Shown piece by piece: positions 173 through 16,730 of a stretch of 32,678 bases of DNA (position 1 is the stretch's first letter; each line of letters starts with the position of its first letter). The notes beneath the pieces were generated by a model. It did not search any database. It had not been told where the DNA came from and worked only from the letters and a program-made list of their open reading frames with translations. Source of the DNA: Chloroflexota bacterium (GTDB lineage: Bacteria; Chloroflexota; Dehalococcoidia; Lucifugimonadales; UBA3495); assembly GCA_028875055.1 (NCBI GenBank), contig JAPPGG010000029.1:1-32678 (forward strand), read 5' to 3'. Made by a program: the position numbers and the translations under genes.

Positions 173-538
173 ATGGAAGTAACCACCCTGGCCATTGAAA
201 AACTCAAGGAAGTACTGGATCAAGAGCAGGAAGCCAACAGTTCCCTGCGAGTAATTGCCATGCCCTCAGGCGGTGGCCTTCAGTACATGCTCACCATGGA
301 AAAGGAGACCCAGCCAGACGATACGGTACTGAGCCTGGAAGGCCTGAGCTTCTTGATGGACTCAGACAGCGCTCCCTTCCTGGAGGAAGCCACCATTGAC
401 TACGTGGAAGAGTTTGGCGGCCAGGTCGGGTTTGTCATCAATAATCCCATGTACGCCAGCGGTGGTGGCTGCGGAGCAGGTTGCGGTTGCGGTTCCGGCG
501 GTGGTGGCTGCGGGGGCGGTGGTTGCGGCGGTCACTAG
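173..538 (+). CDS. HesB/IscA-like (A-type) Fe-S protein with Cys/Gly-rich tail
   Basis: A 121-residue protein with the fold signature of A-type iron-sulfur carriers (HesB/IscA): an N-terminal LAIEKLKEVL helix, a central LRVIAMPSGGG strand-turn, and the terminal NPMYASGGGCG-type Cys segment. ATG 173 is chosen because GGAG sits 9 bases upstream; the TTG at 158 has no such support. Canonical IscA uses a first Cys near residue 35 plus a C-terminal CGCG. Here the first Cys is absent (PSGGG where GGCSG is expected). The tail instead carries five Cys at residues 100, 104, 106, 113 and 118 and a terminal His. Family membership is fairly sure. A role in Fe-S delivery is inference; the tail could equally bind another metal. 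It stands alone, with no isc/suf genes nearby. Confidence 0.75.
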   Translation: MEVTTLAIEKLKEVLDQEQEANSSLRVIAMPSGGGLQYMLTMEKETQPDDTVLSLEGLSFLMDSDSAPFLEEATIDYVEEFGGQVGFVINNPMYASGGGCGAGCGCGSGGGGCGGGGCGGH

Positions 539-12553: not shown

Positions 12554-13411
12554 GGGGGGTGCCGTCGAAATCAAAACATATGGTAGATTCATGATGGTAG
12601 ATTGGTGTTGTGAGAGTGAACGTGAGGGATGGGGAAATGAGAGCGCCGCATCGACGCCACGATATTTCCGACCGGGTTTGGGAACTCCTGGAACCTCTCT
12701 TGCCAGGAGGCACTGGGAGAAAGGGCCGGCCAGCCGGAGACAACCGGTTGTTCCTGAACGCGGTGTTCTGGAACCTGCTCACTGGGGCGCCCCCGTATCG
12801 GGTACGGGGCAGGCCCTGGCGGGACCTGCCGCCGGACCTGGGGGACTGGAAGAACACTCATCGTCGCTTCTGCCGCTGGCGGGACCGTGGAGTATGGAAA
12901 GACCTTCTGGATGCGGTCATTGGCGAGCCGGACTTCGAGTACAGTAGTTCCTGTGGTTGATGATTGATTCCAGCCACATCAGGCTCCACCCAGACGGAAC
13001 CGGGGCCCGGGGCGGCAACCAGGCGGTGGGCCGCACTAAAGGGGCCTGAACAGCAAGTTGCACCTGGCCGTGGATTCCCATGGGATGCCGGTACGGATGA
13101 TTCTGACCTGTTTGCCGACGTGGCAGCCCAATACCTGTTGGCAGATCGAGGGTATGACAGCGACGCCATCGTGGTCCAGGCCGAAGGGCAGGGAATGGAG
13201 GCGGTGATACCTCCCCGGGGCCACCGCCAGAAACCAAGGGACTACGGCCGGGCGCTGTACAAACTGCGCCACCTGGTGGAAAACGCATTGCTTACCTTCA
13301 AACAATGGCGTGGAGTGGCGACCAGATATGCCAAGAATGAAGCCTCATTCCTGGCCATCTGCCAGATTAGAGCAATGGCAATGTGGACAAGATTATTTTG
13401 ACGAACCCCCC
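12554..13411 (+). mobile_element. Decayed IS5-family insertion sequence
   Basis: An element of about 858 bases. The left end (GGGGGGTGCCGTCGAAATC at 12554) and the right end read on the minus strand (GGGGGGTTCGTCAAAATAATC from 13411) form imperfect terminal inverted repeats. It encloses a broken IS5-type DDE transposase. No clear target-site duplication is visible, so insertion is old or the flanks have changed. It sits between the CoA-transferase and Ldh_2 genes. Confidence 0.75.
12637..13401 (+). pseudogene. IS5-family transposase, multiply frameshifted
   Basis: The coding sequence must be read in three frames. The N-terminus (RRHDISDRVWELLEPLLPG, then GDWKNTHRRFCRWRDRGVWK, then EPDFEY) is in the ATG 12637 frame. 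MIDSSHIRLHPDGTGARGG with the first catalytic Asp is in a second frame near 12960-13040. SKLHLAVDSHGMPVRMILT is in a third near 13050-13110. LLADRGYDSDAIVVQAEG and LYKLRHLVENALLTFKQW, with the second Asp and the Glu, return to the first frame from about 13110. All three DDE residues survive but cannot be made as one chain. About 15 residues are missing before the second Asp. Bases 12795-12818 hold an extra in-frame stretch (PYRVRGRP) not expected in the TGAPWRDLPP motif, with a palindrome inside. Confidence 0.8.
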
Positions 13412-13504
13412 TTAACCCTCCAAGTTAGACTTTTCCCTTGACCCGCAATAAACTACTCCCAATATCTCAATATTATGCCGAACAGGGCTCCGGAGGTTTT
13501 TGCC

Positions 13505-14557
13505 ATGCCTGTCTTTCCCCACGAATACCTGCATAAGCTTGCCTACCATGTTTACGTCGCCAAGGGCACTCCTGAAGAGGAGGCGGAGATTGTCGCCACC
13601 CACCAGGTGAAGTCCAACCTGGTAGGCCACGATTCCCACGGCATTATCCAGCTGCTGGAGTATTGCAGCCGCATAGACCGGGGACACATTGTGCCCGGGG
13701 CTCCCTTCGTGGTGGAACGGGAGACGCCCAACACGGCTGTCATCAATGGCAACTGGGGCTTCGGCTTCGTGCAGACGGAGAAGGCCATGCGCATGGCCAT
13801 AGACAAGGCCAGGGAACACGGTGTGGCCGCCATGACGGTCCACCACCAGAGCCACGTGGGCCGGGTGGGCGACTACCCCACCATGGCCCTGAATGAGGGG
13901 ATGATAGGCTTGGTGACCGCCGACTCCGGCGCCGGTCCCAAGAACGCCGCTCCCTTCGGCGGGCGGGCCCGGAGGTTGGGCACCAACCCAATCTGCATTG
14001 GCGTTCCCAGCGATCTCCCGGGGCCGGTGCTGCTGGATATGGCCACCAGCGCCGTTGCCATGGGCAAGATCAATCTTCAACGCAGCCGGGGTGAATCAGT
14101 GCCTTTGGGCTGGATTGTGGACAAGGACGGCAAGCCCACCACCGACCCCAACGACTACTTCGCCGGCGGCGCCATACTACCGGTGGGCGCCGACCAGGGC
14201 CACAAGGGTTACGGCCTGTCCTTTATGGTGGAGATGTTCTCCGGCCTGCTGACGGGACTGGGCTTTGGCATAGACCCGCAGGCCCGCCACAACGACGGGG
14301 TGTTTATCTCCGTTTACAACGTGGAGCACTTCCGCCCGCTGGATGACTTCAAGAAGGAAATGCGGGAGTTCGTCGAGTTCATCAAGACCTCGCCGCCCGC
14401 GGAGGGTTTCACCGAGGTCCTCTACCCGGGAGAGATTGAATACAACACGGAGATGAAACGTCGCGAGGAAGGTATCTACGTGGAAGACCAGACCTGGGAA
14501 GGGATAACGGCCCTGATGGAAGAAGTGGGGGTCACTGAGGTGGTGGGGAAGCCGTAA
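13505..14557 (+). CDS. Ldh_2 family malate/L-lactate-type dehydrogenase
   Basis: A 350-residue NAD(P)-dependent oxidoreductase of the Ldh_2 (malate/L-lactate/ureidoglycolate dehydrogenase) family, which interconverts 2-hydroxy and 2-oxo acids. Hallmarks are LVGHDSHGIIQL near residue 40, the GNWGFGFVQTEKAM helix, HHQSHVGRVGDY, the GTNPICIGVP loop, and the C-terminal QGHKGYGLSFMVEMFSGLLTG. ATG 13505 has CGGAGG eight bases upstream, which settles the start over the ATG at 13475. The length matches the family. TTGACC at 13438 could be part of a promoter just outside the IS remnant, but no good -10 pairs with it. The exact substrate cannot be told. Confidence 0.9.
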   Translation: MPVFPHEYLHKLAYHVYVAKGTPEEEAEIVATHQVKSNLVGHDSHGIIQLLEYCSRIDRGHIVPGAPFVVERETPNTAVINGNWGFGFVQTEKAMRMAIDKAREHGVAAMTVHHQSHVGRVGDYPTMALNEGMIGLVTADSGAGPKNAAPFGGRARRLGTNPICIGVPSDLPGPVLLDMATSAVAMGKINLQRSRGESVPLGWIVDKDGKPTTDPNDYFAGGAILPVGADQGHKGYGLSFMVEMFSGLLTGLGFGIDPQARHNDGVFISVYNVEHFRPLDDFKKEMREFVEFIKTSPPAEGFTEVLYPGEIEYNTEMKRREEGIYVEDQTWEGITALMEEVGVTEVVGKP

Positions 14558-14611
14558 GCGCTTCCTTCGATTTCAGCACTCCAAACAGCAAAACGAGCCA
14601 CCGGCACCGAT

Positions 14612-14680
14612 AAGAGTTGTCACAGATATTGTGTGACAACTCTCTTATTGTCACAGAAAAACAGCATTGTTCTGTGACTG
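14612..14680 (+). repeat. Double-palindrome repeat upstream of fic
   Basis: Two adjacent palindromes: AGAGTTGTCACA / TGTGACAACTCT (14613-14624 and 14632-14643, 7-base loop), and GTCACAGAA / TTCTGTGAC (14650-14658 and 14670-14678, 11-base loop). A matching unit lies after the gene at 15934-16002. Hand alignment gives 50 of 67 identical positions without gaps, and the differences gather in the loops. It lies directly upstream of the putative fic promoter, so it could be an operator, a cassette boundary, or both. Confidence 0.8.
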
Positions 14681-14684
14681 CAGC

Positions 14685-14711
14685 TTGCAACAACTACGGC
14701 GGGAATATAAT
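14685..14711 (+). promoter_or_regulatory. Putative fic promoter
   Basis: TTGCAA at 14685-14690 and a perfect TATAAT at 14706-14711, with a short 15-base spacer. The TTG start at 14749 follows after a short leader carrying AAGGA. The second palindrome of the upstream repeat ends seven bases before the -35, a position from which a bound protein could block RNA polymerase. Confidence 0.5.
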
Positions 14712-14748
14712 ATGGTCTTGAACATTACTAAATCATAAGGAATGAAGA

Positions 14749-15906
14749 TTGCTTCAAGACCAAGTTAATCTCAATCGCGCTGGCAAATACGTGATGCAAC
14801 TCACCGGCTACCAGGCCTTTATTCCTAATCCATTGCCACCCGACCCGCCTTTAGAACTGGACGATGAACTGCTCGGTCTGCTCTCCGTCGCAGACCAGTC
14901 GGTGGGGCGACTCGATAGCGTGTCGGATATGCTTCCTAACCCAGAATTGTTCGTAAGTATGTATGTGCGTAAAGAAGCGGTTCTGAGTTCTCAAATAGAG
15001 GGTACCCGGGCATCCTTGGTAGATGTCCTGGAATACGAAGCTAACTTTCGTCATCGCCAACTGCCGGCCGATGTCCTCGAGACCTTCAACTATGTCAGAG
15101 CTTTGAACGCGGGCTTGGTTCGACTTGATGAGCTGCCAATTTGCAACCGGCTTTTGAGGGAGATTCATGGAATATTGATGGAGGGCGTTAGAGGTCAAGA
15201 ACGGTCGCCCGGGGAGTTTCGAACTTCACAGAACTGGATCGGTATTCCTGGGAGCTCCCTCGAAAGCGCCAGCTATGTCCCTCCCCCTCCCCACGAAATG
15301 ACAATGGCAATGGGTGCACTTGAACAATACCTTAACTCCCCGGTTCCTTCCCCCGTGTTGATAAGAGCTGGACTTGCCCACGGGCAATTTGAAATGATCC
15401 ATCCTTTTCTGGATGGAAATGGAAGGTTAGGGCGGCTACTTATAACCTTTCTGCTTTGCCAGCAAGAGGTGCTGACCAGACCCCTGCTTTACCTCAGTTC
15501 GTATTTCAAAGAATATCAAACGGAGTATTACGAACGACTCCGCGCCATAAGCGCCGAAGGTGACTGGGAAGGCTGGCTGAAGTATTTTCTTAGGGGCATT
15601 GCCGAGGTGTCTAAAGAGGCCACGGAAACGGCCAGAAACATAATTGCCTTGCGGGAAGCCCATAGTCGCCTTGTTATCGGAGGCGTTAGAGGACAGCACG
15701 GCTTATCATTACTGGATGTCCTCTACAATTCTCCCGTCGTCACATATAACCATGTCAGAGATAGTTTGAAGGTCTCTTACAGCACCGCGAACAATCTGAT
15801 AAACGATATGGTAAGTTTGGGTATTCTGGAAGAATCCAGTGCCGTCCCACGAAACAAAGTGTTTGCGTACAGGTCCTATTTGGCGCTTCTTGAGAGAAAC
15901 GGTTAA
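14749..15906 (+). CDS. fic: Fic family protein, class II, with C-terminal winged helix
   Basis: A 385-residue Fic protein, expected to transfer AMP (or another nucleotide moiety) to a target protein. Residues 8-31 are the Fic_N opening (LNRAGKYVMQLTGYQAFIPN). The autoinhibitory motif is N-terminal, SSQIEG at residues 80-85, which makes it class II. The catalytic motif HPFLDGNGRLGR at 218-229 is fully intact. Residues about 318-370 (LLDVLYNSPVVTYNHVRDSL, then STANNLINDMVSLGILEE) form a winged helix-turn-helix. TTG 14749 is used because AAGGA precedes it and the Fic_N domain needs these residues. Base composition is AT-richer than neighbouring genes, suggesting acquisition. DNA binding to the flanking palindromes is an inference. 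Confidence 0.92.
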   Translation: MLQDQVNLNRAGKYVMQLTGYQAFIPNPLPPDPPLELDDELLGLLSVADQSVGRLDSVSDMLPNPELFVSMYVRKEAVLSSQIEGTRASLVDVLEYEANFRHRQLPADVLETFNYVRALNAGLVRLDELPICNRLLREIHGILMEGVRGQERSPGEFRTSQNWIGIPGSSLESASYVPPPPHEMTMAMGALEQYLNSPVPSPVLIRAGLAHGQFEMIHPFLDGNGRLGRLLITFLLCQQEVLTRPLLYLSSYFKEYQTEYYERLRAISAEGDWEGWLKYFLRGIAEVSKEATETARNIIALREAHSRLVIGGVRGQHGLSLLDVLYNSPVVTYNHVRDSLKVSYSTANNLINDMVSLGILEESSAVPRNKVFAYRSYLALLERNG

Positions 15907-15933
15907 CGCACTCTTGAACCATGTGGTACCAGC

Positions 15934-16002
15934 AAGAGCTGTCACACAACTTCTGTGACAACCTTCTTATTATCACAGAAACAGGCGGATTTTCTGTGAT
16001 AA
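15934..16002 (+). repeat. Double-palindrome repeat downstream of fic
   Basis: The second copy of the unit at 14612-14680. The first palindrome is GTCACA / TGTGAC (15941-15946 and 15954-15959). The second is a perfect 12-bp arm pair TTATCACAGAAA / TTTCTGTGATAA (15970-15981 and 15991-16002, 9-base loop). Compared with the upstream copy, the outer pair of the second stem changes from G-C to A-T, which preserves symmetry. It may also serve as a transcription terminator. Confidence 0.8.
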
Positions 16003-16022
16003 GCAGACTTTCTCCTGCTGCG

Positions 16023-16730
16023 TCACCCCCTCAACTTCCGCAGCAACGGTATCGCCGATATCTTTTTCTCGTCCAGGTCTTCCCAGTAGATGCCCTTGGG
16101 GTGGGGGAGGTTGCCGGGGCAGCGGATTACCTCGTCGGGGGTCACTGCGTAGTCCAGGGGGACGTCGTGGTCGGTTCGGGGCAGGTCTTCGGACAGCAGC
16201 TGCATGGGGTGGATGGTGGTAATCACCGGTATGTCGGGGGTGACGATGCCTGCCGCGGTGGCCAGGCCGTACTCCAGGTCGGCATAGCCTCCGCCCTTGC
16301 CTACCCGCACACCGTCCCGGTTTACCGCCACTGAACCGGATATGACCAGGTCCACCTGCATCATCTCTTCCACGAAGACGGGGCGGCCGTGGCGGAAGGC
16401 TCCGCTGATGGTGGAACCCTGGGCCGGGGTGCAGGCCATCTCCGAAGGGTCCAGTTCAACGAAGCATTTTTCGTCCCGCAGGCGGGGGACGGCCATGTAG
16501 AGCAGCTTGCCCTCTTCCAGAGCCTGCTGCCGCAGGGGACGCTGGGCTTTGTCGGGGTTGCTCTTGATTACCCGGGCCTGCTGCCAGACCTCCAGGTCGA
16601 AGACCCGCTCCGCAGCCTCTTTGGACCCGTAGAAGTCCGGTATCTTGTCATGCACCGTTCTGCCTCGAACTACTTTGGCCTGCTCCAGGGCTGTCCAGAC
16701 TTCTTCTCGAATGGCAAACTTGTCCCGCAT
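16023..16730 (-). CDS. 5-formyltetrahydrofolate cyclo-ligase family protein (MTHFS)
   Basis: A 235-residue MTHFS-family protein. Family members convert 5-formyl-THF to 5,10-methenyl-THF with ATP in the cytoplasm. The phosphate/folate loop GKGGGYADLEYG at residues 144-155 is the family signature (GxGxGYYD), preceded by VDLVISGSVAVNRDGVRVG. KSNPDKAQRPLR at 56-67 resembles the archaeal/MTHFSD branch more than the short bacterial YgfA type, so the exact substrate is less sure. AAGGTG lies just upstream of the ATG. It stands alone, with no other folate genes near. Confidence 0.85.
   Translation of the reverse strand: MRDKFAIREEVWTALEQAKVVRGRTVHDKIPDFYGSKEAAERVFDLEVWQQARVIKSNPDKAQRPLRQQALEEGKLLYMAVPRLRDEKCFVELDPSEMACTPAQGSTISGAFRHGRPVFVEEMMQVDLVISGSVAVNRDGVRVGKGGGYADLEYGLATAAGIVTPDIPVITTIHPMQLLSEDLPRTDHDVPLDYAVTPDEVIRCPGNLPHPKGIYWEDLDEKKISAIPLLRKLRG

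Follow-up and report, generated by a model that had tools for sequence, protein, structure and literature searches.

A double palindrome, repeated in direct orientation, brackets a fic gene of the SoFic type in a Chloroflexota genome; the unit spans 67 to 75 bp, and its palindrome centres lie 36 bp apart. We consider it probable that both units serve as operator arrays for the winged helix of the Fic protein encoded between them. Fic dimers would bind the arrays through this C-terminal domain, next to the promoter, and would set the level of an AMPylating and probably phage-triggered growth-arrest protein, most likely by negative autoregulation. The downstream unit would be a further such array, either a direct duplicate or a partner site, and could outlast the gene, one copy staying behind once fic has been lost along with its upstream array. 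A preliminary description of this DNA had proposed either a self-regulated Fic gene or a mobile cassette ended by the repeats. Comparison with relatives gives the first proposal good support, through a unit confined to fic within its own genome, a geometry shared by the family with letters private to each locus, and the precedent of CccR, whereas the second stands only in part.

The bracketed fic locus

A repeat search of the window, the whole 32,678-nucleotide stretch analysed here, returned one family of direct repeats, 75 nt at 14603-14677 and 15925-15999, in the same orientation and with 73% ungapped identity, along with the expected palindromes (Table 1). The first palindrome of each unit (P1) is tight, with half-sites about one helical turn apart, and the second (P2) is wide, with half-sites about two turns apart. 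The inverted pair TCACAGAA-N3..20-TTCTGTGA has exactly two matches in the window and none in 100 shuffles. The two same-orientation copies of the preliminary description are real. With one mismatch allowed, TGTCACAGAA has 10 matches where 1.24 are expected, eight of them within the two units. For the half-sites of the preliminary description, TCACAGA is the better form. Each unit contains four TCACAGA-like half-sites in alternating orientation, their mid-points 10, 21, and 20 bp apart, so that all of them face one side of the helix. The reported exchange of a G-C for an A-T stem pair with symmetry kept was located in the second palindrome (upstream GTCACAGA..TCTGTGAC versus downstream ATCACAGA..TCTGTGAT).

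Table 1. Coordinates of the features at the fic locus of the window
Feature	Position	Strand	Remarks
Left neighbour, malate/L-lactate dehydrogenase (Ldh_2)	13475..14557	+	Pfam PF02615; syntenic in G001, G003, G002, and G007
Upstream double palindrome, predicted Fic operator array	14612..14680	+	Kept in G003 and G001; geometry recurs upstream of other SoFic genes
Upstream P1, AGAGTTGTCACAGATATTGTGTGACAACTCT	14613-14643, centre 14628	+	
Upstream P2, GTCACAGAAAAACAGCATTGTTCTGTGAC	14650-14678, centre 14664	+	
Probable promoter	14685..14711	+	Weak -35 TTGCAA 14685-14690, 15-bp spacer, -10 TATAAT 14706-14711; read by eye
fic, SoFic family, TTG start, 385 aa	14749..15906	+	Pfam, PADLOC, PDB, AlphaFold2/Foldseek
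Fic protein domains	Fic_N residues 44-123; Fic 132-236; winged helix ~318-382		Recognition helix 344-356
Downstream double palindrome, oriented as the upstream unit	15935..16007	+	Between convergent gene ends; also in G003
Downstream P1, TGTCACACAACTTCTGTGACA	15940-15960, centre 15950	+	
Downstream P2, TTATCACAGAAACAGGCGGATTTTCTGTGATAA	15970-16002, centre 15986	+	
Right neighbour, convergent, 5-formyltetrahydrofolate cyclo-ligase (FTHF ligase) family	16023..16730	-	Pfam PF01812; marks the syntenic site

The only gene between the two units is fic, and its GC content (~0.48-0.52, against 0.57-0.68 in the surroundings) confirms the AT-richer composition seen at the outset. An IS4/5-family transposase (DUF4096 and DDE_Tnp_1), split over two open reading frames at 12610-13401 on the plus strand, lies beside Ldh_2 and outside the bracket. 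The upstream unit had been described as abutting the -35 element; read by eye, it ends 5 to 6 bp ahead of the weak TTGCAA, but an automatic scan with 16- to 18-bp spacers did not call this promoter. The -10 TATAAT is kept in a related locus (L023). Upstream of the -35, where the array lies, activation is as plausible as repression, and the downstream array, lying between convergent gene ends, has no obvious promoter to control.

Judged by its profile matches, the product of fic is within the SoFic family but outside NCBI's narrow equivalog. Pfam places both Fic_N and Fic above cut-off, and the PADLOC SoFic profile matches over its full length (389.6 bits, E 4e-117, residues 20-383), while the score against the NCBI equivalog SoFic (NF046030) is 154.6 bits versus a cut-off of 550. 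The closest solved chains in the PDB are SoFic (E 5e-33), with the C-terminal part included. In the alignment, an intact active-site motif, HPFLDGNGRLGR at residues 218-229, fits HxFx(D/E)GNGRxxR, and SSQIEG at 80-85 fits the N-terminal inhibitory motif (S/T)xxxE(G/N), both motifs as defined for Fic proteins elsewhere (PMC9755527). The winged helix at the end of the protein, already suspected, was modelled confidently by AlphaFold2 (pLDDT 82), with helices 318-327, 333-340, and 344-356 and strands 361-364 and 371-373 at high confidence, and the top Foldseek match is Shewanella SoFic (3eqx; TM 0.80 over the full length). We suspect fic to be an anti-phage toxin gene.

A pattern search and BLAST over the source genome (75 contigs, 3.75 Mb, 98% complete) found no third copy of the unit. 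This absence rules out a dispersed repeat of the REP or MITE kind.

Upstream palindromes across the SoFic family

Homologues were present in 60 of 250 genomes of the order, mostly metagenome assembled, and about 70 loci were compared. The best upstream palindrome was significant (p<=0.05 versus dinucleotide shuffles) in 40 of 71 SoFic-family loci, compared with 0 of 72 in-gene controls and 12 of 72 downstream regions. Spacings between palindrome centres cluster at 15-15.5, 20-21, and 35-36 bp. With the window and its orthologues excluded, this geometry is found in 20 of 69 loci (36 of 60 pairs), against a mean of 0.05 loci and a maximum of 1 in shuffles, a comparison that bears on the clustering of palindromes no less than on the exact classes, since these were first read from the data and then counted on a largely overlapping set. 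Some SoFic clades (L045, L047, L048, L055, and L063) have no strong palindrome by this score. In a clade that comprises these loci and L098, several members have a recurrent word, e.g., CGCTAATAAGG, just before the start codon.

The half-site words themselves vary by clade and include TATTAAGATTTA, GATACT, TATTATACT, TTGCATT/TGTAAA, TTAAAGG, and others. The array geometry is common to the family, and the half-site letters are private to the locus or clade; TCACAGA palindromes in other relatives are mostly isolated single palindromes, and the one at G001 C165 resembles a terminator-type hairpin. Pairs of loci share words more often as winged-helix identity climbs, the fraction being 0.003 where identity is below 20% and 0.41 where it exceeds 70% (Mantel p 0.002). 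The winged helix by itself contributes weakly (partial r 0.07, p 0.02, all pairs), and not significantly below 60% core identity; the correlation belongs to the whole protein, the winged helix not being separable from the rest. Scored by raw local alignment, upstream DNA covaried weakly with the winged helix; scoring by repeated words made this clearer.

Outside the order, upstream palindromes or inverted words accompany SoFic genes on plasmids of Picosynechococcus, Synechocystis, Ensifer, Azospirillum, Sinorhizobium, Roseomonas, and Lachnospira, with 15.5- or 20.5-bp spacings at the Azospirillum and Ensifer loci. These plasmid loci span cyanobacteria, alphaproteobacteria, and Bacillota, and their neighbours are unrelated, which leaves Fic as the only constant DNA-binding protein. 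At the pSYSX locus of Synechocystis (L142), fic and an annotated gene for an S subunit overlap. Upstream palindromes at SoFic relatives in at least four bacterial phyla, often with the same spacing and different letters, make self-control by the toxin look like a general rule for the family.

Binding of the arrays by Fic is what we infer, and the sites could in principle serve another regulator, global or coded by a neighbour, whose regulon would include fic. This seems very unlikely to us because no unit was found away from fic in the source genome, the letters vary by locus in related genomes, and the neighbours vary as well. Half-sites that share one word, alternate in orientation, stay in phase, change together, adjoin a promoter, and are private to their locus, in the company of no other constant gene, point instead to a self-encoded DNA-binding protein that is dimeric or of higher order.

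Rewriting and possible gain or loss of the arrays

G003, from the same genus, has the same locus with both units present. In G001, also of this genus, the Fic protein is 74% identical, the neighbours are the same, and the upstream unit is conserved, while the DNA downstream of fic contains TAAAGAACATCTTTA and ATTAAAGATATCGGCCGATTATCTTTAAT, a tight and a wide palindrome that read TTAAAGA where the window has TCACAGA. Letters 2 and 4 are altered in all four half-sites with symmetry kept, and the 36-bp spacing of the centres is retained despite a rewritten spacer. Five pairs are altered on both sides, and across just five sequences the covariation score is higher than in 499 of 500 shuffles and in every slid control. 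With a TCACAGA-type array upstream and a TTAAAGA-type array downstream, at least one of the two in G001 may not match the present protein.

Compensatory stem changes of this kind, together with the position of the downstream unit between convergent genes and a scan that rates P1 of both units as terminator-like (stems AT-rich), might suggest a role in the transcript, where the palindromes would form terminators or 3' and 5' stem-loops. We regard this as extremely improbable: hairpins require neither one shared word that changes in concert nor a fixed 36-bp spacing, terminators number 2 versus 1.2 in shuffles, neither unit matches an Rfam family, and the upstream unit precedes the probable promoter.

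Divergence along the locus is mosaic. Between the window and G001, 352 of 984 positions differ (36%) in 15047-16030, a stretch containing the winged helix and the downstream unit, versus 301 of 2206 (14%) outside. Between the window and G003, by comparison, a block around fic differs at 13 of 1936 bases, versus 177 of 3174 outside, its right edge at 15898-16050 and its left edge ill defined at 14107-14623; ordinary recombination would be enough to explain this block. Presence of the gene at the window site is also patchy, with neither fic nor unit in G002 and other genes there in G004.

A matching downstream array is present in about four to five of the 71 SoFic loci (the window and G003, G001 with other letters, L044, L087, and L092), and at the bracketed loci (the window, L044, L087, and L092) the copies are in direct orientation every time. 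Direct-repeat matches at L050, L076, and L063 were judged to be chance, low-complexity, or coding. The upstream flank of L044 is a dispersed repeat of ~215 bp (>70 BLAST matches in the 2.4-Mb genome G063) and has no counterpart in sister species. The collapse to one copy in relatives lacking fic, which the preliminary description had predicted, was seen in G007 and at the L092 site. G007, from another genus, has no fic and a single decayed unit before the same FTHF ligase, the only one in its genome. Its Ldh_2-FTHF ligase gap (L103) also contains an open reading frame of ~76 aa without a Pfam match and, near the Ldh_2 end, a long inverted repeat, CCCGGCCTTTAAT..ATTAAAGGCCGGG. At the L092 site, three sister species (G137, G142, and G143) have the flanks and one unit without fic, and three further sister species have no unit; at the L087 site, G140 lacks fic and has one palindrome at the upstream flank. 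Two of these single units (L120 in G143 and L121 in G137) have near-identical flanks and are themselves strongly diverged, as if their arms were being rewritten. The repeat was not widespread away from fic, the case that would have spoken against a link: no further copies were found in the source genome, nor in the seven genomes compared from the genus to which G140 belongs.

Integron cassettes (attC) and the ends of IS200/IS605 elements set a gene between direct palindromic sites and leave one site in the empty locus. The units might similarly be recombination-site ends of a fic cassette, and the constant direct orientation, the one-copy sites in G007 and in the three L092 sister species (whose genomes hold the unit nowhere else), the single palindrome of G140, the patchiness of fic, and the low divergence of the G003 block around fic, with its right edge at 15898-16050, would all agree with this. 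We nevertheless find it unlikely. The window bracket differs from those elements in having no integrase, recombinase, or transposase inside it (the IS4/5 transposase lies outside), no dispersed copies or other cargo were found in the source genome or the seven genomes of the genus of G140, and the letters vary by locus. Most SoFic loci lack the downstream array, and the ill-defined left edge of the G003 block is as expected from ordinary homologous recombination. The L092 single copies, moreover, follow the downstream copy over their full length and are not chimeras of upstream left and downstream right parts; the G007 copy is heavily decayed.

That the retained L092 copy matches the downstream one suggests a relic of fic loss and not a site-specific cassette. 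Loss of fic together with the upstream array, or gain beside an array already resident, explains this match better than crossing over between the repeats would. Because the letters are private to the locus, a matching resident array without an earlier fic would be hard to explain, and we prefer to read the one-copy relatives as relics of loss, an order of events that we infer.

The direct repeats may also be merely a substrate for homologous recombination or slippage, with the operator-fic-operator segment occasionally lost and operator function unaffected. This is possible, if somewhat doubtful, and can be true together with the operator reading. The presence/absence polymorphism of a defence gene, the one-copy relatives, and the mosaic blocks against G001 and G003 would be accounted for, and fic is bracketed by unrelated flanking direct repeats elsewhere: at L033 (G248:C101) by a 64-bp repeat that reads like a type I restriction S-subunit fragment (apparently hsdS-like), and at L093 (G172:C39), where fic and its operator lie between exact 22-bp repeats without palindromes, CCCGTTGCTATACTCGCAGCGC, like a long target duplication. 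An identity of 73% over 75 bp is, however, poor for RecA-mediated deletion, and the L092 copies are again not chimeric.

A further idea, which we hold to be rather unlikely, makes the operator array the unit of gain and loss as well: fic would move or be deleted between direct operator copies, and new operator specificities would arise when the 3' half (winged helix with downstream array, as in G001) is swapped. If true, a single piece of DNA would serve an anti-phage gene both as control element and as exchange site.

Relation to known Fic systems and significance

The closest functional parallel to autoregulation by fic is CccR of Yersinia pseudotuberculosis, a class II Fic-HTH protein that binds inverted repeats in its own promoter and represses itself (PMC9755527), and it is from CccR that we take the likely sign of regulation. 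The two proteins share a Fic domain, an N-terminal inhibitory helix, and a C-terminal HTH, one protein being both AMPylator and regulator (a prediction in the present case), and inverted repeats occur in the promoter region of both genes. CccR has a single pair of 10-bp half-sites separated by N26, whereas the window has four half-sites per array at 10, 21, and 20 bp, with an array on either side of fic. In addition, CccR is a type VI secreted effector, and no such link was seen at the window fic.

The fic product resembles the SoFic/EcSofic anti-phage system (PMC12249575; structures 3eqx and 3zcn) in its full-length profile match, in its fold including the C-terminal domain, and in being encoded by a stand-alone gene. 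A 47-aa antitoxin gene, AS1, follows the EcSofic gene, but no open reading frame of at least 20 aa after fic is common to the window and G001, and no AS1-like conserved antitoxin was found there. Neither a palindrome nor autoregulation is mentioned in the EcSofic paper (PMC12249575), and no promoter operators for SoFic were reported in the literature found. CbFic2 of Coxiella burnetii, like the protein described here a Fic protein with a wHTH, forms a dimer and binds DNA through the wHTH; it AMPylates histones, its binding was assayed on random DNA only, no operator is known for it, and its authors noted that DNA binding by SoFic had not been demonstrated (PMC10628234).

Fic proteins of class II that end in a winged helix are very common, and in CccR a single promoter palindrome has been described. 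With half-site geometry shared and letters private, the operator of every SoFic gene would become readable and predictable, and it could be tested directly whether phage infection relieves self-repression. The bracketed loci and their one-copy relatives show a stand-alone, putative defence gene coming and going at a fixed chromosomal site.
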